Origin: an uncultured SAR86 cluster bacterium
Lineage (GTDB): Bacteria; Pseudomonadota; Gammaproteobacteria; Magnimaribacterales; D2472
Reading direction: 5' to 3'
DNA: 42,208 nt
NCBI GenBank assembly: GCA_902557965.1
Contig: CACECK010000006.1
Span: 1 to 42,208, forward strand
Positions 24,759 through 40,166 of the stretch are shown here, piece by piece. A program made the position numbers and the translations under genes. The notes below the pieces were generated by a model. The model worked only from the letters and a program-made list of their open reading frames with translations, searched no databases and was not told the DNA's origin. The first letter of the stretch is position 1. Every line of letters begins with the position of its first letter.

Positions 24759-26714
24759 TCAATATTTAAGTTCTGTCTTAAGAACATTTAAATAAGATTC
24801 ATAATTTTTCCAATAATCAATACCACTTTTATAAATAGGTTGTCTTACTTGTTCAGAACTTGGTGTGCGAACTGATCTTTTATTTTTGTAAAAACTTAAA
24901 CATTCCTCTTCAAACGGCAGATCACAATAATCAAGTATTTTATTAACAGAACTTTCAAAATCATTTACAAGATCCTCATAATTAATTGATAAAATCTGGT
25001 CTGGAAGAACTTTGTTCCAATGATCCATAAGTTCTACATAATTATTATAGTATCCAGCTAAATCATTTAAGTCATATGTAAACTCCTGACCTTCTGCAAA
25101 AAGTTGTTTGTAGCAAGAAAAACATGCTGACATAGAATTACGTCTAATATCTATAATTTTAGCATTAGGCAATATAAGTTTAATTAAACCAATATGTCTA
25201 AAGTTATTTGGCATTTTGTCTATAAAAAATGGTTTATCAGATCTAAAGACCTCAGCATCATTTATATATTGTTCTCCAATCATCTTTAGTTGAGGTGCTG
25301 ATAATGAAAGTAATATATCTGGATATCTAGAAGCCTTGTCCAAGACTTTTCTCAGATTTAATTTATGAGATAGTGCAAGGATATTTGGAAGTTCGTGTGT
25401 TGCCTCAACTTTTGAGTGAGATGCTAGAATTTGTTCTAATAAAGTTGAGCCAACTCTAGGCAAGCCCAATATAAATATTGGTTCTTTTGAAGGCAAACCC
25501 CAGTCTTGTTTGGAAGTAAAAAGATCATTACTGCATACTTCTTTTTGATTTTGACATTCTTCATTAAACATTTCTAAATCAAACTTTGTAAATTGTTTTT
25601 TTAGTAAATTGCCACTTTGATAGTGCTTAAAAGACAGTTCAAATTCATCTCTATCTTCATAAGCCTTTCCTAGTGCAAAGTTCATATATATCTTTTCACT
25701 ATCGTTTAAGTATTCATCATCAATCATGTCTTCGAGTTTAGATATTTCATCGTCAGTAAATTCGTACGTTTTTAAATTAGCTAAACTCCAATACGCGTCG
25801 CCATAATACTTATCAATTTGATATGAGTTCTTATACGAATTAATAGAAGCATCAACATCACCAAATGTTTTCTGCAAATGTCCTTTAGATACTAAAACTT
25901 CTGAATTGTTTTTATCAATAGTAAGTATTTTATTATAAATATCTAATGCTTCTTTTTGATTATTTGTTTGCTGTAAAGTTACTGCATATGCAATCATGAA
26001 GCTAAGGTTGTTTTTATCTCTGTCATATAACCTTTTTGCCTGTTCAAGAGCCTTACCATATTTTTGTCTTTTTATAAGAACATCAATGTAATCTAATGCG
26101 ACCTCAATATTGTCCTTATCGAATACTAGACAGCTTTCAAGAAGGAACTCACTATCATCATATACATGTAACTCTTTTCCGACTTTGGCTAACAATCTCA
26201 TAGCCTCAACATTATGAGGATCCTTTTTTAAAAAATCTCGACAAAGATGGTCAGCTTTTTTATATTTACCCTCATATATAAAACTGCTTACAGATTTAAG
26301 TTCTGGGGGCAGATTTTTTAAATATAAAACATTCTTTGTTGCTAAATCTATAGTATTTTGATCAATATTTTCAATGCCAAGTATGCCTAACCATGATGCA
26401 TGAAGTGTTGGATTATATTTTATCGCTCTCAAGTAACTTTTTAGGGCCATTTTAAAATTATTTAGCTTAAAGTAGTTATGGCCAAATTCCTGAAATGCTC
26501 GAGCATAATTGGAATCTATTTTGATAACGTTATTTAGTATTACTAGAGCCTGTTTATAGTCTCCTTGATACCTAGAACATAGTGAAAGGTAATACCAATA
26601 ATCAAGCTCAATTAAATCATTCTTATTTTTCTCAATTAATGAAACAGCTTGTTTGTAATTTTTAGATGCTATGGTTTCTTGTATCTGTTTTACTGTTGTA
26701 ATTTTAGAAATCAT
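24759..26714 (-). CDS. TPR-repeat sulfotransferase (copy A)
   Basis: This is a 651-residue protein with about ten tetratricopeptide repeats (roughly residues 5-375, e.g. GDYKQALVILNNVIKIDSN) joined to a C-terminal sulfotransferase domain. The PAPS-binding loop is FILGLPRVGSTLLEQIL (414-430); the 3'-phosphate segment is DIRRNSMSACFSCY (522-535); FIDKMPNN (497-504) is also conserved. The family transfers sulfate from PAPS to a protein or small acceptor. No signal peptide is seen, so it is cytoplasmic. It lies directly downstream of a TonB-receptor gene but is separated from it by a strong terminator. A paralogue of nearly the same length and layout is at 33489-35447. Confidence 0.88.
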   Translation of the reverse strand: MISKITTVKQIQETIASKNYKQAVSLIEKNKNDLIELDYWYYLSLCSRYQGDYKQALVILNNVIKIDSNYARAFQEFGHNYFKLNNFKMALKSYLRAIKYNPTLHASWLGILGIENIDQNTIDLATKNVLYLKNLPPELKSVSSFIYEGKYKKADHLCRDFLKKDPHNVEAMRLLAKVGKELHVYDDSEFLLESCLVFDKDNIEVALDYIDVLIKRQKYGKALEQAKRLYDRDKNNLSFMIAYAVTLQQTNNQKEALDIYNKILTIDKNNSEVLVSKGHLQKTFGDVDASINSYKNSYQIDKYYGDAYWSLANLKTYEFTDDEISKLEDMIDDEYLNDSEKIYMNFALGKAYEDRDEFELSFKHYQSGNLLKKQFTKFDLEMFNEECQNQKEVCSNDLFTSKQDWGLPSKEPIFILGLPRVGSTLLEQILASHSKVEATHELPNILALSHKLNLRKVLDKASRYPDILLSLSAPQLKMIGEQYINDAEVFRSDKPFFIDKMPNNFRHIGLIKLILPNAKIIDIRRNSMSACFSCYKQLFAEGQEFTYDLNDLAGYYNNYVELMDHWNKVLPDQILSINYEDLVNDFESSVNKILDYCDLPFEEECLSFYKNKRSVRTPSSEQVRQPIYKSGIDYWKNYESYLNVLKTELKY

Positions 26715-26724
26715 TTAGATATTA

Positions 26725-26756
26725 TATAAAAAAAAGGCCGGGTAAACCGGCCTTTA
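26725..26756 (-). terminator. Intrinsic terminator after TonB receptor A
   Basis: A perfect 9-bp stem (AAAGGCCGG / CCGGCCTTT, 26733-26741 with 26747-26755) encloses a 5-nt loop. Read on the minus strand it is followed directly by a run of eight T, with the stem's own final T's included. It is placed 17 nt after the stop of the receptor gene at 26773, so it ends that transcript and separates it from the sulfotransferase gene. Confidence 0.92.
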
Positions 26757-26772
26757 AGTTTAATTCTAAATC

Positions 26773-29253
26773 TTAGAATCTATATGACAATCTTACACCC
26801 ATATTTCTAGGTCTATTGGTTGTTATTCTAGGAATATCATCCTGATCGTTATAGTAAAGATTTGCTCTTTCATCTCCTGCATTTCTGATAAAGAATTCAA
26901 CATCCACATCATTAAGAGTCATGCCATAAGCAAGATCAATGATTTCGTATGCTGGTTGGTCTTTAACTTTTGCAGCTTCAAAAGAGTTATAAGTTCTTGA
27001 TGAGCTCTTGTAAACAAATTGGAAATATCCATCATTAGAACCCATATCTTTTCTTAGTCTTAAATTCCATTGTCTTTTTGGTGCTAAAGGTAAAGCATTA
27101 CCAATATCAACAATTGGAATTGTTTGAGCTACGTCTTTTACAATTTCAGTATCATTTAATGATATTGCTGCCGCAACTGTTAACGTATCAGATGGATACC
27201 AGAGCATGTCTGCTTCTAGACCACTAATATCTGCATTTGCAGCATTCTCTACAAAAGTAATAAAGTTAACGTGTACAGGATCAAACTGAGATACTTGAAT
27301 TCCAGTCCACTCAATATTGTAGTACGTAGCATTAAGCCTCATAGCTCCATCCATTAGTAGCGTTTTAACCCCAATTTCAGTATTTAAAACTTCATCAGAC
27401 ATATAAGCCAAAGGAATATCTGCTCTATAAGTTCCATCTCCTGGAGTACCGCCACAATAGTTCGCATCAGTAGCCGCATACGATCTACATTTTGGTGTTA
27501 CGCCAGCATTCCTATTCCAACCACCAGGTCTATAGCCTTCAGATCTTGTGAAATACATAAGAGTATTTTCATCTTTCTGATAACTAGCTGTAAACTTAGT
27601 TATTGTGTCATCTTCTTTGATCGGTTGATCTGTATGACCGGCTGTATTGTTGTAGTCTCTACCAGCTTGAGAATCATCTCCTAAAAGACCAAACTTAGAC
27701 TGACCTTCATAATCTAAATCAAGCTCATAATCTCTCATTCCAAGAGTAAAGCTTAACTGATCATTTATAGGAAGAGTTACCTCAGCAAAATATGCAATCT
27801 GTTCATCGGTTCTAGTGATATCGTTAAAGAATCTAACCTCAGGAGGTCTAGGGTTAGGATTATTTGCATATACACCAGAAATAATCTTGTTATTAGGTAC
27901 ATTAGGATATACATCAAGGAACCCTGTATAACCAAAGTCATTTTGTGTGTCTAAGATGCTTTCTTCAATAAAAACACCTGCAGTAAATGAGAATGGCAAT
28001 TCACTTAACTCATTAGTACTAACTCTAAATTCGTGAGTTGTTCTTTCATTTTCATCCATAACATCTACATATACTTCAGAGCTTCCGCAAGTAGGTATTC
28101 CACCAGCAGCAACAAGCTGTGAACCCCAATACACACAAGTGTAATAAGGCATGTAAGCACCAGTATTTATGTAGCCTGTATAGTCAACTGTTTGATCAGC
28201 TTCTCTATTCAAGAATGAGCCTGAATATACAACATCAAGCATTCCCATTCTGCCATCTAAAGTAATAGCTGTTTGATCAAATGAATCTTCTAAAGTATCA
28301 GGTTGAAATCTTGTTACCTCAAGGTCGCCTACAGCTGGATCATAGTCCCAGACACCATCAGATTCTAGTGTTTGATCAATATGTGTTACTAATAACTCCC
28401 AATTGTCATTAAATGACATTCTTGAAGAAAGTCTGAAACCTTCGTAGGTAGCTTCATTGAAATTTTTCTCGACTAACTCAGCGTTATCAGAGGTTTTAAA
28501 AATTCCAGCAGGTACTAGTGAAGCAAATGATCCTTTTCCTTGTGATGATACAGTTCCACCAACATTATCAATATACCCACCTTGAGTTGAATTATAAAAA
28601 ACACCTCTAATTGACCAGGCATCATTAATAGGTATATTTATAAAAGCATCAAGAGAATTACTAGGATCTCCGCTATATGTTGAATAAGTAGATGTATTAA
28701 ATCCACCCTCAACAACATCGAACTTAGGTTTATTTGTTATAAGTCTTACTGTACCAGCTTGAGAACTAGCTCCAAAAAGAGTTCCTTGTGGACCAGGTAA
28801 TACTTCAACCCTTTCCATGTCAGCAACATATACATCTAAATTTCTGCCTGGAACTTGTGCAGGCTGTTCATCGATATATAGAGCTACGTTTGGTTGAGAA
28901 CCAGCTGCTGTAGCAAGCATGACGTTAACAGAATCCACTGCAAGTCCTCTAATGTAGATTGTAGATTGGCCAGGGCCTCGTCCACCACTTGTTACATTTG
29001 GTAGATATTCAACGTATTCATCGAAATTTGAAACGTTTAGTTCTTTTAAAGTTTCTTCGGTTAAAGCAGTAACTGTAACTGGAATCTTTGATGCACTTTC
29101 GTCCTTCTTGGTTGCAGAAACAACAACTTCTTCAATTTGCCGCTCTTGTGATTCAGCTGTTTGCGGTATCATCGCAGCAACTGCACCTAGAACGCCTAAA
29201 GAAATCTTATTTTTTATATTGTTAAGTTCTTTTGTTTTAATTAAATTCAACAT
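26773..29253 (-). CDS. TonB-dependent outer-membrane receptor (copy A)
   Basis: This 826-residue receptor imports a ligand across the outer membrane using TonB energy. The chosen start is the ATG at 29253, which has GAGG 6 nt upstream; the in-frame ATG at 29265 precedes that site and lacks one. A signal peptide covers about residues 1-35 (LGVLGAVAAMIP core). A TonB-box-like EEVVVSAT is at 41-48. The plug follows (VTALTEETL, YIRGLAVDS, MERVEVLPGPQGTLFGASSQAGTV), then a barrel ending in aromatic RLSYRF. A barrel loop holds Cys pairs. The length and PGPQGTLFG form are typical of the large CirA/FecA-like group with unknown ligand. It is divergent from a BCCT transporter gene and paralogous to the receptor at 37776-40166. 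Confidence 0.93.
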   Translation of the reverse strand: MLNLIKTKELNNIKNKISLGVLGAVAAMIPQTAESQERQIEEVVVSATKKDESASKIPVTVTALTEETLKELNVSNFDEYVEYLPNVTSGGRGPGQSTIYIRGLAVDSVNVMLATAAGSQPNVALYIDEQPAQVPGRNLDVYVADMERVEVLPGPQGTLFGASSQAGTVRLITNKPKFDVVEGGFNTSTYSTYSGDPSNSLDAFINIPINDAWSIRGVFYNSTQGGYIDNVGGTVSSQGKGSFASLVPAGIFKTSDNAELVEKNFNEATYEGFRLSSRMSFNDNWELLVTHIDQTLESDGVWDYDPAVGDLEVTRFQPDTLEDSFDQTAITLDGRMGMLDVVYSGSFLNREADQTVDYTGYINTGAYMPYYTCVYWGSQLVAAGGIPTCGSSEVYVDVMDENERTTHEFRVSTNELSELPFSFTAGVFIEESILDTQNDFGYTGFLDVYPNVPNNKIISGVYANNPNPRPPEVRFFNDITRTDEQIAYFAEVTLPINDQLSFTLGMRDYELDLDYEGQSKFGLLGDDSQAGRDYNNTAGHTDQPIKEDDTITKFTASYQKDENTLMYFTRSEGYRPGGWNRNAGVTPKCRSYAATDANYCGGTPGDGTYRADIPLAYMSDEVLNTEIGVKTLLMDGAMRLNATYYNIEWTGIQVSQFDPVHVNFITFVENAANADISGLEADMLWYPSDTLTVAAAISLNDTEIVKDVAQTIPIVDIGNALPLAPKRQWNLRLRKDMGSNDGYFQFVYKSSSRTYNSFEAAKVKDQPAYEIIDLAYGMTLNDVDVEFFIRNAGDERANLYYNDQDDIPRITTNRPRNMGVRLSYRF

Positions 29254-29410
29254 ATGAATCCTCATAGTTAGTTTATATAAATTGCAAAATAAACTAGCCT
29301 GGTCCCCCCAGAGATTTTCCCCTTGAAAGTTTAGCCATATTTATAGACCAGCAATTTCTGTAAATCGGTCTTGCAGTAATAATAACATCTTAAAATAATG
29401 ATGCAATATA
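29254..29410 (-). promoter_or_regulatory. Long structured leader of TonB receptor A (candidate cis-regulatory RNA)
   Basis: The untranslated leader of about 157 nt contains several competing pairings read on the minus strand. CTGGTC (29351-29346) can pair with GACCAG (29304-29299), or its GGTC with the upstream GACC (29370-29367) in a local hairpin. AGTTTA (29295-29290) can pair with upstream TAAACT (29333-29328), or as TAGTTTAT (29296-29289) with downstream ATAAACTA (29276-29269) in a perfect 8-bp hairpin just before the gene. A last small stem TATGA/TCATA encloses the ribosome-binding site. A G-rich segment (GGGGAAAATCTCTGGGGGG) lies in the centre. It does not match any riboswitch class I know. 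The rest of the 243-bp gap holds the two promoters listed separately. Confidence 0.45.
29371..29399 (+). promoter_or_regulatory. Candidate promoter of BCCT transporter A
   Basis: TTGCAG (29371-29376), a 17-nt spacer and AATAAT (29394-29399) give a fair sigma-70 match. Transcription from about 29406 would leave a leader of about 90 nt. It faces the minus-strand promoter at 29418-29445, so the two starts would lie within a few bases of each other. A 13-bp palindrome TAAAGATTCTTTA (29483-29495) stands directly before the start codon. Confidence 0.35.
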
Positions 29411-29417
29411 GATATAA

Positions 29418-29445
29418 ATAACAGTTATATTTCTTAATATGTCAA
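29418..29445 (-). promoter_or_regulatory. Candidate promoter of TonB receptor A
   Basis: On the minus strand, a perfect TTGACA (29445-29440) is followed after 16 nt by TGTTAT (29423-29418), a moderate -10 match. Transcription would start near 29411 and give the long leader described for 29254-29410. Confidence 0.45.
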
Positions 29446-29496
29446 TTTTATAACTAGATTATTCAATTTAATTATGTTTCACTAAAGATTCTTTAT

Positions 29497-30981
29497 ATGA
29501 AAAACATTAGTAAACCTAGGTTTCTTAGCGCTGTTTCGTTAATTATTTTAATAACGGTTGCAGTTTCATTAAATTCATCTGTTTCAGAGGGTTTTTTTAT
29601 TAATTTACAAACATTTTTATCCAAATATCTAGGTTGGATGATTATTTTGTTAGCCAATGGTTTCCTTATATTTTCAATTTGTCTGATATTTACAAAATAT
29701 AAAAATATTAGGCTTGGTGGAATAGATGCAAAGCCAGCATATTCATATACAAATTGGATTGCAATGTTATTTAGTGCTGGTCTTGGTATTGGTTTATTGT
29801 TTTATGGCGTAGCTGAACCAATAATGCATCTAAATTCTTATCCTGGGATGATTGAGGGTAATATTTCATATAACGCAGGTAAGGCTATTGGATTAGCAAA
29901 CTTGCATTGGGGTTTGCATGGCTGGGCTATATATTCTTCACTAGGGTTGTGTTTTGCTTATGCTTCATACAATAAAAACCTTCCTTTTAGAGTTAGTTCA
30001 CTTTTAGGATCTAAAGTTTCATCTAATAAGTATCTTGCTGTGACAATTGATGTTATCGCTATCCTTACAACAGTTTTTGGTGTCACCACATCTCTTGGTT
30101 TGGGTACAGTTCAAATAAGTGCTGGTCTCAATAATGTGTTTGATATTAATGAAAGCTTTGTAAATCAAATTTTAATAATCACATTTATCACATTAATTGG
30201 ACTCATTAGTGTTTCTTTGGGACTTGATTCTGGAATTAAAAGGCTTTCACAATTGAATATGATTTTAGCAGTTAGCCTTCTTCTATTTATATTTATTTTA
30301 GGGCCGACTATATTTATTATTAATGCTCTGATACAAAACTTTGGTGCTTATTTAAATACTCTAATTCAGTCTGCAACATGGACTGAGGTATATGATGATA
30401 CATCATGGCAAAACGGCTGGACTTTATTCTATTACGCATGGTGGTTTGCATGGGCTCCTTTTGTTTCTTTGTTTATTGCTCGTATATCTTATGGGAGATC
30501 TATTAAAGAGTTTATTATCGGTGTTTTATTTGTTCCATCGTTGATTGTTTTTATTTGGATGGGTGTATTTGGTAATGCTGCTATCTATCAAGTTATAAAC
30601 GAAACCAGCCAGATCAGCGTAGTGGTAAGTAATAATCTTCCTGTGGCATTGTTCACCTTATTTGATGTGTATCCCGTTTCACAATTTTTATCAATACTTT
30701 CTTTAGTTTTGATTGTTACTTTCTTTGTTACATCCTCAGACTCAGGTGCTTTAGTTGCATCAATGCTGTCATCTAAAAAACAAATGAATATTAATGATGA
30801 TTCACCAATATTATCTAGAATCACTTGGGCTATATTGCTGGGAATATTAGCTGCTGTATTGTTATACGCTGGTGGCTTGACTGCGCTTCAAACGTCAGTT
30901 GTTATAACCGGTGTCCCATTCGCACTGATCGTAGTTCTAGCATGCAGAGAATTTTACTCATCTTTAAAAAATGAGGTTTAA
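29497..30981 (+). CDS. BCCT-family transporter, Na+-coupled betaine type (copy A)
   Basis: This 494-residue protein has about 12 helices and belongs to the betaine/choline/carnitine transporter family, which carries quaternary ammonium or sulfonium compounds across the inner membrane. The glycine motif AGLGIGLLFYGVAEP (94-108) is the form seen in Na+-coupled carriers such as BetP. HWGLHGWAIY (137-146), TSLGLGTVQ (198-206) and the aromatic FYYAWWFAWAPF (311-322), followed by IARISYGRS, are in family order; the Trp residues around 315-319 correspond to the substrate-binding box. The short cytoplasmic tail argues against BetP-like osmosensing. It is divergent from TonB receptor A and meets a 51-residue gene end to end. 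Confidence 0.92.
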   Translation: MKNISKPRFLSAVSLIILITVAVSLNSSVSEGFFINLQTFLSKYLGWMIILLANGFLIFSICLIFTKYKNIRLGGIDAKPAYSYTNWIAMLFSAGLGIGLLFYGVAEPIMHLNSYPGMIEGNISYNAGKAIGLANLHWGLHGWAIYSSLGLCFAYASYNKNLPFRVSSLLGSKVSSNKYLAVTIDVIAILTTVFGVTTSLGLGTVQISAGLNNVFDINESFVNQILIITFITLIGLISVSLGLDSGIKRLSQLNMILAVSLLLFIFILGPTIFIINALIQNFGAYLNTLIQSATWTEVYDDTSWQNGWTLFYYAWWFAWAPFVSLFIARISYGRSIKEFIIGVLFVPSLIVFIWMGVFGNAAIYQVINETSQISVVVSNNLPVALFTLFDVYPVSQFLSILSLVLIVTFFVTSSDSGALVASMLSSKKQMNINDDSPILSRITWAILLGILAAVLLYAGGLTALQTSVVITGVPFALIVVLACREFYSSLKNEV

Positions 30982-31137: not shown

Positions 31138-31196
31138 ATATTTACTCTATATAATTACAATTTTTATATGTTAACCTCAAAATCATAAAGAATATA

Positions 31197-31748
31197 ATGG
31201 ATGCGCTAGAAAATATCTTAAATCGAGTATCTGCTAGGAAATTAGCGGAACCTTTTCCATCTGATGATGAAATGAAAAAAGTATATAAGGCTGCTTTGCG
31301 TGCGCCTGATCATGCATGGTTAAGAACAAGTAGTTTTATAGAGGTAAAAGGTGAAGGCTTGGATAAACTATCTAATATCTTTTTAGATTTTGGTAAAACT
31401 ATACCTAATTTGCCTGATGATATTTTAAAAAAATATACAGATGCTCCTTACAGAGCTCCTATGATTATTATTTTAGTAAATACGCACAAAGAACATCCAA
31501 AAGTGCCGTCAATAGAACAGAAACTTTCAACCGCTGCCGCAGCTCAAAATATAATGCTTGCATTAAATGCTATGAATTATTCATGCATCTGGAGAACTGG
31601 AAAAATGGCTTTTAATGAGGTGATTCGAGATGCCCTTGGCTTAAGTAATGAGCAAGAAGTATTAGGGTATTTGTATATCGGAACTGAGGTAGGAGATAAA
31701 AAAAAGATACCTAATTTAGATATAGATAATTTTGTAAGTTACTTATAG
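31197..31748 (+). CDS. Nitroreductase-family flavoprotein, YdjA-like
   Basis: This 183-residue FMN-dependent oxidoreductase has the length and pattern of the compact YdjA group. The FMN-phosphate segment RVSARKLAEPFPSDDE (11-26) and AALRAPDHAWLRTSSFIEV (33-51) match it, as does the central AAAAQNIMLALNAMNYSCIWRTG. These enzymes reduce quinones, nitro compounds or other small electron acceptors with NAD(P)H. The physiological substrate is unknown. The 3' end overlaps the next convergent gene by 6 bp. Confidence 0.88.
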   Translation: MDALENILNRVSARKLAEPFPSDDEMKKVYKAALRAPDHAWLRTSSFIEVKGEGLDKLSNIFLDFGKTIPNLPDDILKKYTDAPYRAPMIIILVNTHKEHPKVPSIEQKLSTAAAAQNIMLALNAMNYSCIWRTGKMAFNEVIRDALGLSNEQEVLGYLYIGTEVGDKKKIPNLDIDNFVSYL

Positions 31749-32114
31749 ATTTTTATATTTATACGATGCAATCCATGCCATTGAGGCAAAAACTATTTCT
31801 GAGATTAATGATGATAATGCTAGTGGAGCTTCATGGTTGATACTTGCAAGTATGTTGAAAGTTGCTGCAAGCATGTAAACCAATCCACAAACAAAGATAT
31901 ATTCATATTTTTTTGTTGCAAATGAGAGATAACACATAATGGAGGTTGCTAAGAAAAAGGCAGTAAAATCTCTAATCTGAGTATTTCTGCCCTCTCCATC
32001 TAGATAGGCCATACCTAATGATTCAGCTGCAGATGCTGGAATGAAGATCCATTGAAGTGCGAGTAATAGTAAAACTGTTCCTAGAATCACTGATAAGATA
32101 TTTGCTATTTTCAT
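31743..32114 (-). CDS. Small four-helix membrane protein (DUF4345-like)
   Basis: This 123-residue protein has four hydrophobic segments (about 4-27, 47-65, 71-90 and 96-117). The stretch ALQWIFIPASAAESLGM after the first helix, followed by IRDFTAFFLATSIMCYLS, resembles small uncharacterised membrane proteins of the DUF4345 kind. The assignment is tentative. Its start overlaps the S51 peptidase stop by 4 bp (ATGA), so it is the last gene of that unit. Confidence 0.6.
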   Translation of the reverse strand: MKIANILSVILGTVLLLLALQWIFIPASAAESLGMAYLDGEGRNTQIRDFTAFFLATSIMCYLSFATKKYEYIFVCGLVYMLAATFNILASINHEAPLALSSLISEIVFASMAWIASYKYKNL

Positions 32115-32809
32115 AATTGTATTAACTCTGTTTTCTCAATTTGGCTATGATTTATTATAGAGTCTTTTTTGTTCACTAAAAAACAATTTTTAGAATCTCC
32201 AAAGCTTACTGAATATTTTGGAATATCGTCAATTAAATGAAGAGCACAAAAGCCCTCGATAGCCATACATTCTGATATCCTTTTATCCTCAAGTATTTCC
32301 TTAACAAAAGGTATTCTCTCAGGCTCTTCATCGTAATGCGGGCAGCAAACTCCATTTACAAAACCAAGACAAGGTAATATTGCTTGATGATCTTTCCATG
32401 AATCAGTTATACCCTTTTCAAACCAACATATTGCACCAGCGCTTACACCACTCATTATAATTCCTTGTTTATATGCCTTTAAAAGAATCTTATCCAATTC
32501 CCATTCTCTCCATACAGCCAACATACTCTTGGTATTTCCACCTCCAACAAAAATAATATCTTGATTCATGACATGTTTTTCCAGGTCAATAGTTCTTTTA
32601 AAGAAATCGATATGTGAAGTCTTACAATCTAAAAAATTAAAAGCATCATAAAATTTATTGATATAATTAGAGTCATCGCCTGTCGCAGTTGGTATAAAAC
32701 AGATTTGTGGATTTTCTTTTGAGGATATTTTTTTAATATACCTTTCAATTTTAAGATCGCCTATCGACCTACCAAATCCTCCGCCGCCTATTGCTACAAT
32801 TTGTCTCAT
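32111..32809 (-). CDS. Peptidase S51 family protein (dipeptidase E-like)
   Basis: This 232-residue protein has the class I glutamine-amidotransferase-like fold of family S51. FIPTATGDD (38-46) and VGGGNTKSM (88-96) are family motifs, and the nucleophile elbow is GVSAGAICW with Ser123. It starts IVAIGGGGFG. Known relatives are aspartyl dipeptidase (PepE) and cyanophycinase; the length and lack of a signal peptide favour a cytoplasmic dipeptidase-type enzyme. It begins 3 nt after the nuclease gene and overlaps the small membrane protein gene. Confidence 0.87.
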   Translation of the reverse strand: MRQIVAIGGGGFGRSIGDLKIERYIKKISSKENPQICFIPTATGDDSNYINKFYDAFNFLDCKTSHIDFFKRTIDLEKHVMNQDIIFVGGGNTKSMLAVWREWELDKILLKAYKQGIIMSGVSAGAICWFEKGITDSWKDHQAILPCLGFVNGVCCPHYDEEPERIPFVKEILEDKRISECMAIEGFCALHLIDDIPKYSVSFGDSKNCFLVNKKDSIINHSQIEKTELIQL

Positions 32810-32812
32810 ATC

Positions 32813-33496
32813 CTAACTGTTATTTTTATATTTCTTATCAAAATAAATAAGTCTCTTTTTCCATTTAATTGTTAATTCATTAAATTCATCTAATTTAACA
32901 ATAAATTCTTTAAAGATTAAATCTCTGTCAACCATTAAAATTACTATCTGTTTTATTTCAGTATTAAACATTACGTTATGCGCATTGGCATATGCACAGC
33001 CTTGTAAAAAATAATCTTCGATCCACTCTCTTCTTTTTATTCTTCTGGCAGTCTTGAAGTCAATTAATGATGGAGTACCCTGATATGTACCGACACAATC
33101 TGCAGTTCCAGCATATAAATTATCTAATATTAGGCCTACTTCAAGACCCCAAATTTCTGTTATCTTTTCTAAACCTTGATTAATGAATTTTGAGGTTATG
33201 TTTCTTGCCATAAGCTGATCATTATTTTCTTCAAAATCGTCCCAGTGCTCTTTATTTAGATATTTTTCAATTGCTTCATGAACTGCAGTTCCAATATCAG
33301 TACTTTGTTTCATTATTCTATCTGCTTCAAGGTCACCAACCTTGTGTCTCCATTTTTCTATACCCTCTTTGTTATTCGAGGTTTTTGAAAGGACTGTTGT
33401 TACACTTGGAACAAGATTGCCATTAGAGTCTAAGTAATGCCTTCCAATCTCGGTATCAACTCTTTCAAGGTCCGGATATGTAAACTTATTATTCAT
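32813..33496 (-). CDS. PD-(D/E)XK-family nuclease, phage-exonuclease-like
   Basis: The 227-residue frame from the ATG at 33496 overlaps the sulfotransferase stop by 8 bp (ATGAATAA); upstream in-frame TTG and ATG codons at 33532 and 33526 would add up to 12 residues and cannot be ruled out. The order of motifs is that of RecB/lambda-exonuclease-like nucleases: VPSVTTVLS, GTAVHEAIEKYL, GTADCVG with an Asp, LIDFKTARR (the D..D-x-K core) and a QGCAY (QxxxY) motif. The PSVTTVLS opening and GTAVHEA resemble exonucleases of T4-like and other marine phages. It is cytoplasmic and would act on DNA ends. The operon partners do not suggest a role. Confidence 0.75.
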   Translation of the reverse strand: MNNKFTYPDLERVDTEIGRHYLDSNGNLVPSVTTVLSKTSNNKEGIEKWRHKVGDLEADRIMKQSTDIGTAVHEAIEKYLNKEHWDDFEENNDQLMARNITSKFINQGLEKITEIWGLEVGLILDNLYAGTADCVGTYQGTPSLIDFKTARRIKRREWIEDYFLQGCAYANAHNVMFNTEIKQIVILMVDRDLIFKEFIVKLDEFNELTIKWKKRLIYFDKKYKNNS

Positions 33497-35447
33497 TAAA
33501 ATGTTTTGATAGGACCGACAAGTCATTTTCAAAATTTTTCCAATAATTTAGTGCGCTTTTATATATTGGTTGTCTTACTTGTTCTGAACTTGCGGTTTTA
33601 ACTGGACGAGACGATTTATAAAAATCCATACAAGATTCTTCAAATGGGAGCTGTAAATAATTTAACATCTTACGAACTTCTTCCTCAGAATTATTAATGA
33701 CATCCTCATATAAAACTGTATGAATTGAGCCAGGAAAAAATTTGTTCCAAAAATCCATGAGTCTTAAATAATCTTTATAGTATCTTGCTATATCGTCAAG
33801 ATCATAAGTAAAGTGTTGGCCTTTTGCAAAATACTGCTTAAAGCAACTGAAACATCCATCCATGGGATTTCTTCTTGCATCAATAATTTTTGCGTTAGGT
33901 AGAATCATCTTTATTAAGCCAATATGTGGAAAGTTATTTGGCATTTTATCTATAAAGAGCTCTTTTTCATTTCTAGCCCACATTGTTTCATCAATAAACA
34001 TCTTTCCATACATTTTTATTGATTTACTATCGAGCTCAAGTATATTATTTAAATAATTTTCTGAATTATTTAAAGATTTAATTCTCCTTCCTATTGTCAT
34101 AATATTGTGAAGTTCTTGAGTTCCCTCAATGCAAGAATGCGATGATAAGATTTGTTCAAGTAGCGTTGAGCCAGCTCGTGGCAGACCTAATATAAATATA
34201 GGATCTTGAGCTTCATATCCAGAATTGAAATCAATTAAACTCTTATTTTTTTGAAAAAAATCAATAATTGAATCTATATTATTAGCATTTTCTTGAGCAT
34301 TGTACTCAACAATTTTTCGCTGCATCCAATTCCCTTTCTCATAAAAAGTAAATGATTTTTTATAATCACCTTTTGATTCATAAGCTTTTCCTAGAGCAAA
34401 TAACATTTGAATCTTTTCTTGTTCTTGGATTTTGTCATCAAGTGAATTTTCCATCTGTAATATTTGAGCCTCAGAAAACTTATAAGTTTTTAGATTTGCT
34501 AAGCTCCAATATCCCTCGCCACATAAAGGGTATAAAGTAATTGCTTTATGATAAGCATCTTCACATTCTTTTCTTCTTCCAACAGTTTTAAGAGCATGAC
34601 CCATACTTAGGTATACTCTTGGATTATTATTTTTTAATGACAATACTTTTTGATAAGTCTTAATACCTTCATCATAATCTGCTAATTTAACGTATATAGT
34701 TCCAAGAGCAACCAGTGCCTCCAAGTTATAAGGATCAAGCTTTATTAGATTTTTAAATGCTTTCTTTGATTTCTCTAATTTATTTTGAATCCTATATACC
34801 TTAGCGAGGTTGTCCCACAATAAATGAAAATGCTGATCAATTTTAATTGCTCTTATAAATAGATTTTCTGCTATAGAATAATTTTTATTTTTAAAAGCTA
34901 AAAGCCCAAGCAAACGTAAAGCATCAATATTATTATTATCTTTTTTTAAAACTTTTTTATAAGATTCTTCTGCTAATTTAAACCTTCCAGCTTTTACATG
35001 TCTTATTCCTTTGTATAGTTCTGAGTAAGACTTATCAGATTCAAAAAATGTTTGGATAACTTCATCAGATTTTTCTTCATCATCATGTTTTAAATAATAA
35101 TTTGATAGCTCTCTGGCTGTATTTATTGATGGATGGGATGTGTTCAATAAAAGAAGTGTGTCAAATGCCGCTGATTCTTCTCCAATATATAACAATAATT
35201 TATATTTTTTTTCTAAAGTATTTTTATTAGAAGCATCTATTTTTAACACTCTATTTATGAATTTAAGTGATTCAGTTGGTTTATTTAGCTTAATAAAAAT
35301 ATCTGCTAAGAGATTTAGTGATTTTTTATGATCAGATTGAATCTTGAGAATTTCTTCAAGTTGTTCGATAGACTCTTTTAGATTATTATCATTAAGTAAC
35401 TTAATTGCATTATCAAAAGCATAATTAATATTATTTAATTCTGACAT
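33489..35447 (-). CDS. TPR-repeat sulfotransferase (copy B)
   Basis: This 652-residue paralogue of the protein at 24759-26714 has the same design: TPR repeats from about residue 5 to 385 (e.g. AENLFIRAIKIDQH) and a C-terminal sulfotransferase domain with FILGLPRAGSTLLEQIL (418-434), DARRNPMDGCFSCFKQ and FIDKMPNNFPHIGL. The two share near-identical stretches such as SSEQVRQPIYKS. Acceptor unknown; cytoplasmic by lack of a signal. Its ATG is 9 bp from the divergent BCCT gene's ATG, so its promoter must lie inside that gene. It heads a unit with the nuclease, S51 peptidase and small membrane protein. Confidence 0.88.
   Translation of the reverse strand: MSELNNINYAFDNAIKLLNDNNLKESIEQLEEILKIQSDHKKSLNLLADIFIKLNKPTESLKFINRVLKIDASNKNTLEKKYKLLLYIGEESAAFDTLLLLNTSHPSINTARELSNYYLKHDDEEKSDEVIQTFFESDKSYSELYKGIRHVKAGRFKLAEESYKKVLKKDNNNIDALRLLGLLAFKNKNYSIAENLFIRAIKIDQHFHLLWDNLAKVYRIQNKLEKSKKAFKNLIKLDPYNLEALVALGTIYVKLADYDEGIKTYQKVLSLKNNNPRVYLSMGHALKTVGRRKECEDAYHKAITLYPLCGEGYWSLANLKTYKFSEAQILQMENSLDDKIQEQEKIQMLFALGKAYESKGDYKKSFTFYEKGNWMQRKIVEYNAQENANNIDSIIDFFQKNKSLIDFNSGYEAQDPIFILGLPRAGSTLLEQILSSHSCIEGTQELHNIMTIGRRIKSLNNSENYLNNILELDSKSIKMYGKMFIDETMWARNEKELFIDKMPNNFPHIGLIKMILPNAKIIDARRNPMDGCFSCFKQYFAKGQHFTYDLDDIARYYKDYLRLMDFWNKFFPGSIHTVLYEDVINNSEEEVRKMLNYLQLPFEESCMDFYKSSRPVKTASSEQVRQPIYKSALNYWKNFENDLSVLSKHFNE
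35405..35434 (+). promoter_or_regulatory. Candidate promoter of BCCT transporter B
   Basis: TTGCAT (35405-35410), an 18-nt spacer and TATTAT (35429-35434) precede the BCCT start by 22 nt. The element lies inside the first codons of the divergent sulfotransferase gene, as it must given the 9-bp gap. Confidence 0.35.
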
Positions 35448-35456
35448 AAAACAATA

Positions 35457-36932
35457 ATGATTGATCCTAATTGGAATAAAACAGTTGTAAGTATAACTAT
35501 TTTAATGTCATTGGTGCTATCTATATTCGTTTTAGCTGATCCAATAACATCTTCTAAAATGCTTTCAGAAGTTTACGCAATACTCTCTAGAGAATTTGAA
35601 TCTTTTTTTATGTATGGCAGTTTTATCTTATTGATACTGCTTTTTGTTTTAGGTTTGTCTAGGTATGGAAAGATAAAAATTAAACTTGATAACAAACCAA
35701 CTTATTCACTTTTATCATGGTGTTCTATGTTATTTGCAGCTGGTATTGGAGCAACCTTGTTGTATTGGTCAACAGTAGAATGGATTGAATACTTTAATAT
35801 TCTTAGCTCTGATCCAAGCATAAGTGAAGATAAAGTTTTGTTATATTCAAGGTCTTATCCATTATTCCATTGGGGTTTTACAGCTTGGGCAATCTACTGC
35901 CTTCCAGTGGTTGCTTTTGGCTTAGCCTTAAGCCTAAAGCCTGAATCTAACTTAACATTTTCTGGGATATTATTTTTTAAAAATAAATATATTAATTTCA
36001 TATTAGATGTTTTATTTATTGGTGCAATTATATGTGGAGCTGGGGTAGGACTTGGCCTTTCATTTCCTCTTATATCCTCTGTAATTTCAGAAATATTCAA
36101 TATAGATAGAACTGTGACACTTGATTTGATGACAATAATAATTTGCTCTCTAATTTTTGGGACTAGCGCCTATATAGGTGTTCAGAAAGGCATAAAAAGG
36201 TTAAGTAATATTAATATGATCTTAGTAATATCATTTCTTGTTATTATTTTTATGATTGGTCCAACATGGTACATTCTTTCAAATTCTATAGAAACTTTGT
36301 CATTTTTCTTTATAAAATATACTGAAATGAGTCTTACTACAGGCACTAATATTAGCCTTGACTGGACTGTTTTTTATTGGGCTTGGTGGTATGCACTTGC
36401 CCCAATGGTTGGAACATTTTTGGTAAATATTTCAAATGATAAAACATTAAGAGAGATTATCTTTGGAACTATTTTTGTTGGAAGTTTCGGTTGCATATTT
36501 AGTATGTTGATTTTATCAAATTTATCAATTTCATTATTTGATAATAGTCTTTTAAATGGTCCTGAAATAATTTTGAATGATGTGATGACTAGGGAACAAT
36601 TGGTAGTGGAAACGATATCAAGTGTGCCATTTGGAAATGTGCTTTTAATTGCTTTTGCAATTATATTGATAATATTTTTGTGCACTACATATGACTCTGC
36701 TTCATATGTTCTTGCTTCTGCGTCTATGAAAAAATCTAATATGAGTAGCTCAAAATCTCTAAGGGTCTTGTATGCATTATTGCTTGTTGTTCAGCCTACT
36801 CTATTAATGTACCTTAACGGTGTAGACTCTTTTAAATGGATCATGGTTATTTTTTCAATACCATTGCTATTTATTAATATATTGTTAATGTACTCAATAT
36901 TACAAAATGTATATTCAATTAAAAAATCATAA
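35457..36932 (+). CDS. Divergent BCCT-family transporter, CaiT-like features (copy B)
   Basis: This is a 491-residue member of the BCCT family. The core HWGFTAWAIY (138-147) and FYWAWWYALAP (306-316) is conserved, so an aromatic substrate box is present. Other segments depart from the betaine type: AGIGATLLYWSTVEW (95-109) replaces GLGIG...VAEP, GVGLGLSFPLIS (196-207) replaces SLGLGxxQ, and FLVNISNDKT replaces the usual ARISRGRT. Several of these read closer to the carnitine/butyrobetaine carrier CaiT, although the CaiT Na1-site Arg is not apparent (Asn in SNINM). The substrate is likely a quaternary-ammonium-like compound. The alpha/beta hydrolase gene starts 26 bp inside its end. Confidence 0.88.
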   Translation: MIDPNWNKTVVSITILMSLVLSIFVLADPITSSKMLSEVYAILSREFESFFMYGSFILLILLFVLGLSRYGKIKIKLDNKPTYSLLSWCSMLFAAGIGATLLYWSTVEWIEYFNILSSDPSISEDKVLLYSRSYPLFHWGFTAWAIYCLPVVAFGLALSLKPESNLTFSGILFFKNKYINFILDVLFIGAIICGAGVGLGLSFPLISSVISEIFNIDRTVTLDLMTIIICSLIFGTSAYIGVQKGIKRLSNINMILVISFLVIIFMIGPTWYILSNSIETLSFFFIKYTEMSLTTGTNISLDWTVFYWAWWYALAPMVGTFLVNISNDKTLREIIFGTIFVGSFGCIFSMLILSNLSISLFDNSLLNGPEIILNDVMTREQLVVETISSVPFGNVLLIAFAIILIIFLCTTYDSASYVLASASMKKSNMSSSKSLRVLYALLLVVQPTLLMYLNGVDSFKWIMVIFSIPLLFINILLMYSILQNVYSIKKS

Positions 36933-37779
36933 AGTTCATATCTTTACTAAAACGGTAATAGATCCATCTAAAAAAAGTCTTATATTTATTCCAGGCGCCG
37001 GTATGGATCATCGGATCTTATCAATGTTCAAAATGGATAGTTTTGAAGAGAGATATAATATTTTAGCAATTGATCTTCCTGGCCATGGATATACAACAGG
37101 ACCATTATTTAAAGATGTCGAGAGTCATACTAAGTTATGCATAGAAGTTTTAGATGAATTAAATTTGCAAGATCTTATTTTTGCAGGTCATAGCTGGGGT
37201 GGGCTTATTGCCCTAGATCTATCTACTCAATATAAAAATAGTATGACCATATGCATGAACATTGCTTATCCATTTTTAGTAGGTGATATTTTATTAGATT
37301 ATGCAAAAGGCAACTTAGATCAAGCTGTTGAATTTCTTATGAAGTTTGGTATTTATAAAATGCCAGAAACCGAAATTAAAACAACTGGTTTTGGTGTAAA
37401 AGGTTCAGGATTCTATGGCAGATCAAAGGGTGTTATAAAATCACCATACGGAACCAAGACAGTTGAAGATGATCCTGAAAGAGAAATTAAACTATATCCA
37501 TTAAAAAGGTTATTTAATCAGACAGAAAAGGAAATTAGTTCGATTGATCTAAATTCATGTACCAACTTTAGACTCCAGGAAAGTCAAATTCAAAATTTTG
37601 AAAATGTAAAATACATATTCTGTGAAAAAGATAAATTGGCTAGATACAATCCTGATAACGAAATTCTTCAAAACGCTATTCTTGATGAAGATGTATTTAT
37701 ATTAGCTGGATGTGGTCATTTCCCCTATTTTGAGGATCCTGACCAACTAGAAAAAACCTTTAAGAAGATTTTAGATTAG
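36907..37779 (+). CDS. Alpha/beta hydrolase co-transcribed with BCCT transporter B
   Basis: This 290-residue cytoplasmic alpha/beta hydrolase has FIPGAGMDHRIL (27-38) as oxyanion region, DLPGHGYT (56-63), nucleophile elbow GHSWGG with Ser96, probable acid Asp in CEKDKLA, and base His in AGCGHFPYFEDP near the C-terminus. No signal peptide. It overlaps the transporter gene by 26 bp, a strong sign that the two are co-expressed, so it may hydrolyse a compound brought in by that carrier, for example an ester of a betaine or carnitine. Its last 4 bp overlap the convergent TonB-receptor gene. Confidence 0.83.
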   Translation: MYIQLKNHKVHIFTKTVIDPSKKSLIFIPGAGMDHRILSMFKMDSFEERYNILAIDLPGHGYTTGPLFKDVESHTKLCIEVLDELNLQDLIFAGHSWGGLIALDLSTQYKNSMTICMNIAYPFLVGDILLDYAKGNLDQAVEFLMKFGIYKMPETEIKTTGFGVKGSGFYGRSKGVIKSPYGTKTVEDDPEREIKLYPLKRLFNQTEKEISSIDLNSCTNFRLQESQIQNFENVKYIFCEKDKLARYNPDNEILQNAILDEDVFILAGCGHFPYFEDPDQLEKTFKKILD

Positions 37780-40166
37780 TATCTATATCTTATTCTTATA
37801 CCTACAATCCTAGGCTTGCTTCCAGTTCTTCTGTATCCAAAGCCTGCATATCCAGAATCACCAACATCTACAAAATCGTTATATCGTGATAAATAAGCAT
37901 CTTTATCAAACAAGTTTGTAATATAGAATTCAAGTGACGTATTGTCGTTATCTATACCTGCTCTTAAGTTACTAATATTATAAGCTGGTAATTCAGCTGC
38001 TCCATTTTCATAAGAAGTAAATCTTTTACCCGTATGAGAATGATCTAAGCTAACAAAAGCAGGCTTGCCCATAAAAACAAATTCTTTATCAAATGATAAA
38101 TAATATGAGAGTTCAGGCATATACGCCAACCTATTTCCAGCATCAGCACCTAGTTCTCCAGAGGTGTAATAATAATCTTGTGATAATGTAGGATCCATTT
38201 TATTTACGTAAAAGGTCATGCCTGCAGTATCGTTGAATGAGTACATCATATTTAACTCAAGGCCATTAATTTTTGCATTACCTACATTTTCAGTATATGC
38301 AACTGAGGTAATATCAGTATCGTAAGTTGATGTTTGATAATCTGTCCAATCCATTTTATAAAAAGCCCCATTAAGAATTAACTTTCCATCTTTAAGGGAA
38401 GATTTAACACCAATCTCATAACTATCTAGATAGTCAGGGTCATACGTTGCTGGAATTAGCCCTGCTTGAGAAGGTCTAGGCCTATTAACACCTGATGGTC
38501 TAAAGCCCTCAGAGTAGCTTCCGTATATCATAATGTCATCAGAGATATCATGAGATAAAGAAAGTTTAGGTATTGAACCGGTTTCAGACGAATTAAAGTT
38601 TAAGGTATTAATACCATAAGCATATGATCCGTAATAACCATCACTTGCAACCAAGTTCATTGTTTGATCATATTTTCTTAAGCCAAGAGTTAACTCAGTT
38701 TTATCAGATACATCAAAATAAACCTCACCAAATACTGCATCTATGTCTCCTTTTCTAACTAAATCTGCTTCCCAGAAGATTGGGTATATACTTCCAGGTT
38801 GAAGATAGTCAACATCAGTAACCTTTTCATTAGTTTCCTTGAATGCTCCAAGAATCCAATTAAAACCAGATTCATTATTTGATTGAATTCTAAATTCAGT
38901 GGATGTTCTTTCAATATCATTGGTCTGAGCATAGGTCATTCTAGGATCTCTACAATTTGAAATATTTCCGTAGTAATAATAATCATAGTAATCACAAACA
39001 TAAGTTGGATATGCAGCATATGCATAATATTCAACATAGCTAGCATAATCATATGTATAAGCAGTATCTCTTTCAAAAATCGAAGATGTTAAAATTACAT
39101 CCAAATTATCATTAATTGAGCCGCTAATAGTTACTGACATTTGATCAAATTCATCATCATATTTCTCGGGAGAAAATCTTGTGTTGCTTCTCTTAGGCAT
39201 TGCAGCGCTCTGATCATCAGTAAAGATATCAGTTTCATACGAGCCGTTATATTGAGATTCTTGTGTCAAGAATGATAGATCAATATTAAAATTATCAAAT
39301 GCAGTTGCAAGCCTAATCCTGCTACCTGTTTTTGATGAATCATTGTAGTCATCTTTTGCAACATTATAAGGAGCTGTTGTGTTATCTATTGTGTAATTTA
39401 TTCCATAATTTTGGTAAGTAAAACTTGCAGGTTTATTGTCAATCCAACCTCCATCTTGAACATCATAAGCGCTTATTCTTGCGGCTAGACTTGATCCAAT
39501 TGGAATATTTACAAATGCCTCAAGTGATTCATCATTAGCTCCGTCTGTGATGGAACCATATTCCACGTCCACACCTGCATCAAATGCAGTTGGATCCGGT
39601 TTTTTTGTAATTATTTTAATGTTACCTGATGTTGAGCTAGAACCATACAAAGTTCCCTGAGGGCCCATTAGAACTTCAACTCTTTCAATATCATACACAT
39701 GTAGATCGGGAGTCAAACTTCCTGCTGTTAATGGCTGTTCATCTAAATATAAAGCAGTTGTTGCTTCAGGAGATGCATAACTATTCATAATTGCGCCATC
39801 TGAAACACCCCTTATATAAAAATTAGATTTTCCAGGACCTACATTATTAAACGTAACTGCAGGAGAAAGATTTGCAATGTCTTCTAAATTCTTAATATTC
39901 TTTTTTTCTAATTCAGCTGATGTGATAGCTTGAACACTCATTGCAATATCTTGAACGCTTTGCTCTTTTTTAGATGCCGTAACTATTACTTCTTCAACAT
40001 TATCATCTTGCGCATTTAAATTATTAGCATTTGAAACGCCAATGCCTAAAGATAGAGCTCCAAGCCATGACATTGCAAAATTATTATCTTTAAAAACTTC
40101 TCTTAAAGCAGACGTCAATGGATCTACTTTTCTTTCAAAAAGTGGTTTTAATTGAACTCTAGACAT
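37776..40166 (-). CDS. TonB-dependent outer-membrane receptor (copy B)
   Basis: This 796-residue receptor has a signal sequence preceded by an unusually long charged N-terminus: hydrophobic core at about 30-46 (AMSWLGALSLGIGV), likely cleavage before AQDD at 52-55. The TonB box EEVIVTAS is at 58-65; the plug has YIRGVSDGA, LYLDEQPLTAG and MGPQGTLYGSSSTSGNIKIITKKP; the barrel ends RIRIRYRY. A barrel loop at 370-405 is very Tyr-rich (15 Tyr within 370-400) and bracketed by Cys391 and Cys405. Compared with receptor A it shares layout and motifs but is clearly diverged. SD AGGGG lies 8 nt before the ATG. Confidence 0.92.
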   Translation of the reverse strand: MSRVQLKPLFERKVDPLTSALREVFKDNNFAMSWLGALSLGIGVSNANNLNAQDDNVEEVIVTASKKEQSVQDIAMSVQAITSAELEKKNIKNLEDIANLSPAVTFNNVGPGKSNFYIRGVSDGAIMNSYASPEATTALYLDEQPLTAGSLTPDLHVYDIERVEVLMGPQGTLYGSSSTSGNIKIITKKPDPTAFDAGVDVEYGSITDGANDESLEAFVNIPIGSSLAARISAYDVQDGGWIDNKPASFTYQNYGINYTIDNTTAPYNVAKDDYNDSSKTGSRIRLATAFDNFNIDLSFLTQESQYNGSYETDIFTDDQSAAMPKRSNTRFSPEKYDDEFDQMSVTISGSINDNLDVILTSSIFERDTAYTYDYASYVEYYAYAAYPTYVCDYYDYYYYGNISNCRDPRMTYAQTNDIERTSTEFRIQSNNESGFNWILGAFKETNEKVTDVDYLQPGSIYPIFWEADLVRKGDIDAVFGEVYFDVSDKTELTLGLRKYDQTMNLVASDGYYGSYAYGINTLNFNSSETGSIPKLSLSHDISDDIMIYGSYSEGFRPSGVNRPRPSQAGLIPATYDPDYLDSYEIGVKSSLKDGKLILNGAFYKMDWTDYQTSTYDTDITSVAYTENVGNAKINGLELNMMYSFNDTAGMTFYVNKMDPTLSQDYYYTSGELGADAGNRLAYMPELSYYLSFDKEFVFMGKPAFVSLDHSHTGKRFTSYENGAAELPAYNISNLRAGIDNDNTSLEFYITNLFDKDAYLSRYNDFVDVGDSGYAGFGYRRTGSKPRIVGIRIRYRY

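Follow-up and report, generated by a model that had tools for sequence, protein, structure and literature searches.

Two described bacterial systems come closest to the locus analysed here. In the literature text available, RaxX of Xanthomonas is the only documented case of bacterial tyrosine sulfation; bacterial genes for protein-tyrosine sulfotransferases (TPST) are called sparsely distributed in a 2022 review (PMC9372746). Its enzyme RaxST is a cytoplasmic protein of TPST type which acts before export on a product encoded alongside it (PMC6637879, PMC9372746, both as available in part). The nearest described co-occurrence of a sulfotransferase (ST) and a TonB-dependent transporter is that of the methanobactin operons, where MbnS and MbnT belong to one operon (PMC3621798, in the part available). 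The present locus lies in contig CACECK010000006.1 of an uncultured SAR86 cluster bacterium (assembly GCA_902557965.1), of which a stretch of 42,208 nucleotides, called the window below, was analysed. Positions 24759-40166 hold two gene sets, A and B, each with an ST that carries tetratricopeptide repeats (TPR), a TonB-dependent receptor (TBDR) and a carrier of the BCCT family.

The comparison with these systems is mixed. RaxST modifies a 60-residue peptide exported by RaxAB (same sources), unlike the candidate substrate here, an outer-membrane receptor of about 800 amino acids; the STs of the window also have a long TPR domain, and their likeness to RaxST is one of description, not of direct comparison. 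With animal TPST1 and TPST2 they share the fold of the catalytic domain (Z about 21), aligned key residues and an acidic residue before the candidate tyrosine. However, identity is only about 17-19%, and the animal proteins are Golgi enzymes (PMC9372746, PMC6094398, available text), whereas those of the window are fused to TPR and show no signal peptide evident by eye. MbnS is thought to act on a threonine of the chalkophore, in operons that contain the MbnA/B biosynthesis genes (PMC3621798, same part); a Pfam scan of 30 open reading frames (ORFs) of the window found no MbnB/MbnC-type gene and no MATE exporter, no search with Mbn proteins having been made. Both carriers are clear members of the family of betaine, choline and carnitine carriers (PF02028), but neither reaches an NCBIfam equivalog cut-off. 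Among the matches listed in literature searches there is no description of a TPST-like enzyme paired with a TBDR, and in the literature searched none of a BCCT carrier coupled to a TBDR-ST pair. By word search, sulfat-, sulfotransferase, tyrosine and betaine are absent from a 2024 review of TonB-dependent uptake (PMC11658791). An earlier reading of this DNA, made from its letters alone (the sequence-only reading), knew of no described system with this combination, and none came up among those matches either.

Matched receptor and sulfotransferase types

In set A, the receptor lies directly upstream of the ST on the same strand, and 58 bp separate both ORFs. ST A (651 amino acids; 24759-26714, minus strand) matches PF13469 with 163 bits and carries TPR; TBDR A (26773-29265, minus strand) has a Plug domain (PF07715) and is 830 amino acids long from the first ATG, the 826 given previously corresponding to a start at the ATG four codons further in. 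BCCT A (494 amino acids; 29497-30981, plus strand; PF02028, 536 bits) is divergent from TBDR A. Set B consists of ST B (652 amino acids; 33489-35447, minus strand; PF13469, 151 bits, plus TPR), whose catalytic residues were aligned, BCCT B (491 amino acids; 35457-36932, plus strand; PF02028, 323 bits), divergent from ST B, and TBDR B (796 amino acids; 37776-40166, minus strand; Plug PF07715 and barrel PF00593). Both STs are TPST-like, and both carriers pass the PF02028 membership cut-off of 27 bits. The ORFs, families and arrangement described for both sets by the sequence-only reading are present at its positions or very near them, and Pfam agrees with its assignments.

Across SAR86, the type of the receptor predicts the type of the ST. 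Pairs were formed from receptors longer than 700 amino acids that pass a [DG]YxxY filter and an ST of more than 1,300 bp within 5 kb, a few of the receptors being cut by the end of a stretch. After clustering of the receptors and of the ST catalytic regions, the types matched in 46 of 47 pairs: T1 with S4 (14 pairs), T2 with S5 (10), T3 with S3 (9), T4 with S2 (10) and T4 with S1 (3), leaving one T1-S2 pair. TBDR A is of type T2, which pairs with S5 in 10/10 cases. The T1-S2 exception is L082, whose adjacent ST is split by a frame break, so that its receptor was paired with the second ST in that island. The ST of slot 1 is frame-broken in two genomes (L082:12898-14900 and L083:4919-6923), in which the receptor is still open.

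Receptor and ST are exchanged as a matched pair. At the 15 slot-1 loci compared, TBDRs of types T1 and T2 share 39% identity against 70-75% within a type, and the corresponding STs share 39% against 66-75%, one T1 ST (L083) being a fragment. The flanking BCCT is 74% identical between types and 72-82% within them, MAPEG 57% and 58-64%, and the nitroreductase (71%) and S51 peptidase (72%) are about as similar between types as within them. Since the TBDR and ST differ by type and their neighbours do not, receptor and ST were replaced together while the neighbours stayed. Types T1 and T2 of slot 1 are each found with both slot-2 types, T3 and T4. Tree distances of TBDR and ST are correlated (r 0.65 in 94 pairs, those of SAR86 chosen by the filter given above; 0.77 in 11 triples outside SAR86), as are those of TBDR and BCCT (0.60 in 60 triples; 0.45 in the 11 outside SAR86); for ST and BCCT the values are 0.34 and, in the 11 triples, a non-significant 0.29. 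Species descent is not corrected for in the permutations used for these correlations.

The pairing of receptor and enzyme is secure, as are the gene set and its conservation. Each set could be an uptake module around a dedicated receptor-modifying pair. The TPR-ST would be a cytoplasmic protein-tyrosine sulfotransferase of TPST type that binds the precursor of its partner TBDR before or during export and sulfates tyrosines of one extracellular loop (D-Y-x-x-Y...YY-x-C). The finished receptor would have an anionic, aromatic, probably disulfide-pinned loop that helps to capture a positively charged ligand; a methylated amine of betaine type, either free or as part of a larger compound, is the most likely candidate. 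This ligand would be carried over the outer membrane by the TBDR and, where a BCCT is present, over the inner membrane by the BCCT. From sequences and models we infer that sulfation takes place and on which target, that the disulfide forms, what the ligand is and in which order it flows. That the TPR-ST sulfates the loop of its partner before export, in a module for betaine-like compounds, is a tentative proposal which falls somewhat short of probable. The general form of it, in which many Proteobacteria would sulfate loop tyrosines of a partner TBDR by a dedicated TPR-TPST, with sulfotyrosine as a ligand-binding element and the pairs exchanged as units, is possible and slightly more doubtful. 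The role of the ST, left open by the sequence-only reading, has in this way gained a specific candidate, protein-tyrosine sulfation of the partner receptor.

The tyrosine-rich receptor loop

At an overall identity of 33%, TBDR A and TBDR B have in common a loop that contains two cysteines and is rich in tyrosine. In TBDR B it spans residues 373-405 (38952-39050, minus strand) and holds 11 tyrosines in 20 residues. The AlphaFold2 model of this receptor has a pLDDT of 84.2, and the 50 PDB matches listed for it are all outer-membrane receptors of the same fold. In the model a loop of residues 374-410 joins strands 355-373 and 411-429; it is placed outside the cell because it lies opposite the short 353-354 turn. 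The loop of TBDR A (residues 361-393; 28087-28185, minus strand) is placed as extracellular by alignment with TBDR B, and its D361, Y362 and Y365 match the near-invariant D-Y-x-x-Y. Among 40 ST-linked receptors D373, Y374 and Y377 (TBDR B numbering) are at least 90% conserved, with a mean column identity of 26%. At least 7 tyrosines in 20 residues occur in 38 of 387 distinct ORFs of at least 300 amino acids from the SAR86 stretches (the window, L020-L031 and L061-L100), and all 38 are TBDRs.

A wider test covered 80 TBDR loci, of which 75 were used (four SAR86 loci and L205, with a loop under 30 amino acids, were left out). Receptors were counted as linked when an ST scoring above 400 lay within 5 kb; dropping 5 weak-ST loci and 9 unlinked loci with short flanks left 43 linked and 18 unlinked receptors, all from outside SAR86. 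Every one of the 43 linked receptors has at least 5 loop tyrosines (median 7), and 35 have the exact DYxxY, whereas at least 5 are found in 5 of the 18 unlinked receptors, which have full flanks (median 1.5). An acidic residue stands at -1 of 23% of linked-loop tyrosines, compared with 14% of loop residues, and at -4 of 19%; basic residues are scarce around them (1-5% versus 8%). TPST1 requires negative charge at -1, according to the part of PMC6094398 available. A BCCT is present at 9 of the 43 linked loci; the other 34 show none in the stretch examined, 18 of them with at least 5 kb on both sides. The Tyr loop is kept at all 34, so the loop follows the ST and not the BCCT. Twenty-five genomes that lack PF13469, six of which are SAR86, were also examined; receptor matches occur in 16, and the 29 receptor rows obtained show 0-4 loop tyrosines; these rows come from the 30 best loci and not from every receptor, four of them repeat ORFs, and the loop alignment of the most distant is doubtful. 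The nearest end-to-end match among them, L251 (G109), has DSSEF in place of DYxxY and falls outside the main clade.

Several observations weigh against the sulfation proposal. In a tree built without the loop columns the ST-linked receptors form nearly one clade. The labels change five times for ST and four for Tyr. Four independent contrasts are supported: both traits change together in about one of them and in opposite directions in none, and three show no loop difference. As ST-linked receptors are mostly one clade, the loop counts and their Fisher value are not independent evidence. Judged from this tree, the association of loop and ST is one of long co-conservation and not of repeated gain, and the co-variation lies mostly in one receptor clade. 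ST-linked TBDRs of about 1000 amino acids lack the Tyr loop (L104, L121, L122, L129-L131), and it is also absent from L201, L215 and L219, which are linked to weaker STs. Five unlinked receptors do have the loop (L150, L170, L180, L186, L202). Model confidence for the loop of TBDR B is low (pLDDT about 45 for residues 381-400), the set-B receptors L068-L070 show no loop cysteines, and the only positions at which acidic residues exceed the average of the loop are -1, -4 and, by a small margin, +2.

A rule by which every ST-linked TBDR is Tyr-rich is ruled out by the receptors of about 1000 amino acids together with L201, L215 and L219. The STs at L104, L121, L122 and L129-L131, in other Gammaproteobacteria, stand mostly in tandem. 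For four of the five unlinked receptors with a loop (L150, L170, L180 and L186, the last by an assembly in common with L170) an ST scoring above 500 exists elsewhere in the genome; the best ST read in the genome of L202 scores 349. Such a distant ST does not discriminate, since one is also present in four of the six control genomes whose unlinked receptors are poor in Tyr (L190, L192, L203 and L212; not L214 and L217). Among ST-linked receptors, those of set B alone show a clear N-terminal docking extension. Ahead of the signal peptide they have a conserved segment in common (LKPLFxKKxDPxT...FKxN; window 37776-40166). At L134:11603-14218 a TBDR has a short repeated Tyr-containing segment near its C-terminus.

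The loop could also be an unmodified aromatic cage or lid for a quaternary-ammonium ligand, with the linked ST acting on something else. Tyrosine and tryptophan cages are the usual means of binding betaines, and methylated-amine genes lie close to some of the loci. Because the receptors belong mostly to one clade, the loop could be a trait of that clade. However, a cage fits poorly with the composition of the linked loops, in which, relative to the rest of the protein, Tyr is enriched 2.9x while Phe (0.84x) and Trp (0.49x) are depleted; in unlinked loops the figures are 1.56x, 1.28x and 0.97x. Also against it, the 34 of 43 ST-linked loci that show no BCCT keep the loop, receptor and ST are exchanged together without the BCCT, and the Tyr positions shift while Tyr-richness stays in L193, L198 and L207. 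An unmodified cage is on balance unlikely, and of the alternatives to sulfation it survives best.

Linkage across genomes

The source genome (1,051,093 bases in 22 contigs, 81.5% complete) has two matches each to PF02028 and PF13469, all four inside this region, which makes the clustering more than chance; PF07715 has 15 matches in the same genome. In the SAR86 family PF13469 is present in 101 of 107 genomes. Forty stretches were fetched from the PF13469 matches listed, chosen by the ST and not by TBDR or BCCT: 39 around TPR-STs (L061-L099) and one around a shorter ST without TPR (L100). All 53 TPR-ST ORFs of at least 450 amino acids in the window and L061-L099 lie no more than 3.5 kb from a TBDR piece and no more than 6 kb from a BCCT. 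The co-occurrence of the three families in related genomes, by which the sequence-only reading wished its idea to be judged, is therefore found at 53/53 SAR86 TPR-STs. The distance between sets A and B is about 8 kb in several genera; in genus g5 they are separate loci. In some genomes the place of B is taken by a third set, C, whose ST is about 530 and whose receptor is about 755 amino acids long. The L100 protein (L100:9281-10396; 371 residues) matches PF13469 but not TPR. No TBDR was found near it, and short open frames similar to it recur in the family.

Outside SAR86 the TBDR-ST pair is spread over Gamma- and Alphaproteobacteria, including the cultured Paraglaciecola chathamensis (L148), Psychrosphaera sp. 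F3M07 (L152), Colwellia hornerae (L153) and Novosphingobium nitrogenifigens (L181). A BCCT is found at 11 of 44 such loci, where it is the sole widely recurring neighbour, compared with 1 of 28 control loci with unlinked receptors (L150). The core unit is the TBDR-ST pair, and the BCCT is optional. The BCCT was also considered as the core of the module; this is ruled out, as only these 11 of 44 loci have one and it is not exchanged with the pair. Among STs of the whole class with a profile score below 500, many have no TBDR found nearby. Above 500, 5 of 6 loci have a related receptor within 3.5 kb; the ST of L105 (score 607) has no such receptor alongside, a further point against the sulfation proposal.

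A second alternative is that the ST sulfonates a secreted small molecule or peptide which the TBDR then retrieves. The methanobactin operons are a precedent for this (PMC3621798, available part), and matched receptor-ST types would also fit a receptor that tracks a modified ligand. However, the same scan of 30 window ORFs contains no natural-product biosynthesis family or MATE exporter, and fewer than about 100 bp separate the TBDR from the ST in sets A and C, with no space between them for a precursor gene. The recurrence of the BCCT alone as a wide neighbour in the 44 loci also argues against a secreted product. Methanobactin sulfotransferases have been assigned to PF00685 (same source), whereas the present STs score best in PF13469 and lower, yet over the cut-off, in PF00685. 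A secreted product is improbable on these grounds.

The sulfotransferase domain and its sulfate donor

The catalytic domain of ST A begins at about residue 396. When a profile of 40 ST domains was compared with the PDB, 7 of the 9 best matches were protein-tyrosine sulfotransferases (4e-17 to 1e-12), tick TPST first, then TPST1 and TPST2, with polyketide/olefin-synthase sulfotransferases close behind. For the AlphaFold2 model of the ST A domain (pLDDT 87.2) Foldseek ranks 1-13 are all TPST. VIA-align gave Z of 20.9-21.7 for seven TPST entries. Two polyketide/olefin-synthase sulfotransferase domains followed with 17.8 and 17.6, and no other row among the matches listed exceeded 13.8. Arg420, Glu441, Lys500 and Arg525 (ST A numbering) are invariant in 40/40 STs, SAR86 included, and align with TPST. 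From this alignment we take Arg420 to bind the 5'-phosphosulfate of the donor 3'-phosphoadenosine 5'-phosphosulfate (PAPS), Glu441 to be catalytic, Lys500 to be an active-site residue and Arg525 to contact the 3'-phosphate. The general residue scheme of the TPST active site is given in the available part of PMC6637879. A C-terminal S-x-x-Q-V-x-x-P...W stretch also aligns with TPST; being largely common to TPR-STs with no such receptor found alongside, it marks the wider TPR-ST class. Profiles and models together make the assignment of the ST domain as TPST-like in fold and sequence well supported.

The supply of sulfate donor is the weakest point of the sulfation proposal. No canonical PAPS pathway was found in the 107 SAR86 genomes, CysN not having been searched. 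Sulfite reductase (PF01077, NIR_SIR) and Sat-type ATP sulfurylase (PF01747) are found in none of the 107; PF01747 is also absent from several controls, including E. coli. PF01507 occurs in 39 of 107 genomes, weakly except for one match in G058. The family of adenosine 5'-phosphosulfate (APS) kinase, PF01583, gives a weak match in 91 of 107 (88 of 101 ST-bearing and 3 of 6 ST-free genomes). In the three genomes inspected for it, a kinase of 135-136 amino acids stands next to a protein of 129-130 amino acids with a marginal nucleotidyltransferase match (L283:1403-2195 in G000 contig 2, L284, L285). The best PDB relatives of one of these kinases are APS kinases (2e-4) and those of its neighbour adenylyltransferases. 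The two could be a reduced PAPS-making pair, or something else. A sulfur economy of SAR86 based on PAPS alone, considered as support for the sulfation proposal, is at most possible on these counts.

That no canonical PAPS synthesis was found in SAR86 favours a third alternative, in which the TPR-ST would chiefly bind the receptor or assist its assembly, with little or no catalysis in SAR86; the long TPR array and the pair specificity would suit such a role as well. The invariance of the catalytic residues in all 40 STs speaks against it. So do the weak PF01583 matches, with the one short APS-kinase-like protein as a possible source of PAPS, and this alternative is about as improbable as a secreted product. 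Least probable, by a small margin, is that the ST sulfates a surface glycan or lipid and is linked to the receptor for regulation. A sulfating action on exopolysaccharide has been ascribed to sulfotransferases that lie in glycosyltransferase clusters (PMC4110880, available part), but the 30 scanned ORFs include no glycosyltransferase family, receptor and ST types co-vary and swap together, and the nearest folds are TPST and not carbohydrate sulfotransferases.

Likely substrates

Against the glycine-betaine model NF047988 (cut-off 650) BCCT A scores 472.5 and BCCT B 244.9 bits, and no NCBIfam model reaches its cut-off with BCCT B, which weighs against the betaine part of the proposal. As neither reaches the glycine-betaine equivalog cut-off, the carriers are filed only as BCCT. 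At L146, from an alphaproteobacterial metagenome-assembled genome (MAG), the pair is surrounded by sarcosine oxidase alpha and beta, a GbdR-like regulator, an MTTB-family methyltransferase and a corrinoid activator. L103 has MTTB and MTHFR genes near the pair, and L141 a GcvT-like protein, MTHFR and a homocysteine methyltransferase-like protein. One neighbour group spans L141, L146, L158 and L183, its annotated members at L146 and L183 being dimethylglycine-/sarcosine-dehydrogenase-like FAD-GCV_T proteins, and an MTHFR group spans L103, L141 and L191. Methylated amines are favoured because of the catabolism genes near L103, L141, L146 and L183.

No methylated-amine gene was found among the proteins scanned at eight partly annotated loci (L102, L109, L151, L153, L164, L168, L181, L189). 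In Nitrospirillum viridazoti (L173:6014-14382) the TBDR-ST pair stands beside an aromatic amino acid lyase and a HutF-like amidohydrolase, which suggests a histidine-related ligand there. The ligand therefore probably varies between loci. For those with a BCCT a betaine-type substrate is a likely candidate. The uptake pathway of the sequence-only reading, with TBDR and BCCT in series, is borne out in its linkage, and a methylated-amine or betaine-type substrate is plausible, while its unit has to be redrawn as the TBDR-ST pair. Its suggestion of an ester or betaine lipid as substrate finds no backing, as nothing beyond generic hydrolases indicates one.

Origin of the two sets

Between A and B the STs share 42% identity over 503 amino acids, the TBDRs 29-33% and the BCCTs 30%. 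In the receptor tree TBDR A groups with L151, a Glaciecola MAG (support 98), while TBDR B, with L177 (SAR86), is placed next to L183 and L193 (support 91). The SAR86 loci L144, L160 and L177 fall with the window-family receptors, which agrees with the assignment to SAR86 that the low GC content had suggested. By ST and BCCT distances each copy is closest to its own orthologues in other genomes. A recent joint duplication of both sets is ruled out by the separate receptor clades and these nearest orthologues. Trees had been named by the sequence-only reading as the way to see whether A and B duplicated together: the copies are paralogous within each family, and on the tree evidence they are ancient paralogues, not a local duplication.

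Other genes of the window

Between the two sets lies an island with a nitroreductase, a small protein and an S51 peptidase (31197-32809, identified by Pfam and synteny), a conserved context outside the swapped pair. It is followed by a 239-residue protein without Pfam or NCBIfam match (window 32813-33532), which is kept beside the S51 peptidase in many loci. In set B an alpha/beta hydrolase (36907-37779, plus strand; PF12697) overlaps BCCT B. One is present at the 11 further set-B loci checked (L063, L067-L070, L078-L080, L082, L083, L098) and at none of the six set-B loci of genus g5. Next to the region, window 253-7614 holds envelope-type genes: MurB-like, CTP_transf_3, ABC and FtsX permease, and a 919-residue ABC_membrane-ABC_tran-LpxK fusion ORF.

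Implications

If the sulfation proposal is true, tyrosine sulfation would be a general means by which Proteobacteria, SAR86 included, adjust their outer-membrane receptors. A large class of annotated yet unexplained TPR-sulfotransferases would gain a role, and a receptor clade with a strange Tyr-rich loop an explanation. The proposal would also point to a labile modification in nutrient receptors, and routine proteomics can miss labile sulfotyrosine. Should the sulfation proposal fail, a receptor-enzyme pair that is exchanged as a unit and is linked to methylated-amine catabolism would still offer new handles on the uptake of betaine-type compounds by marine bacteria.

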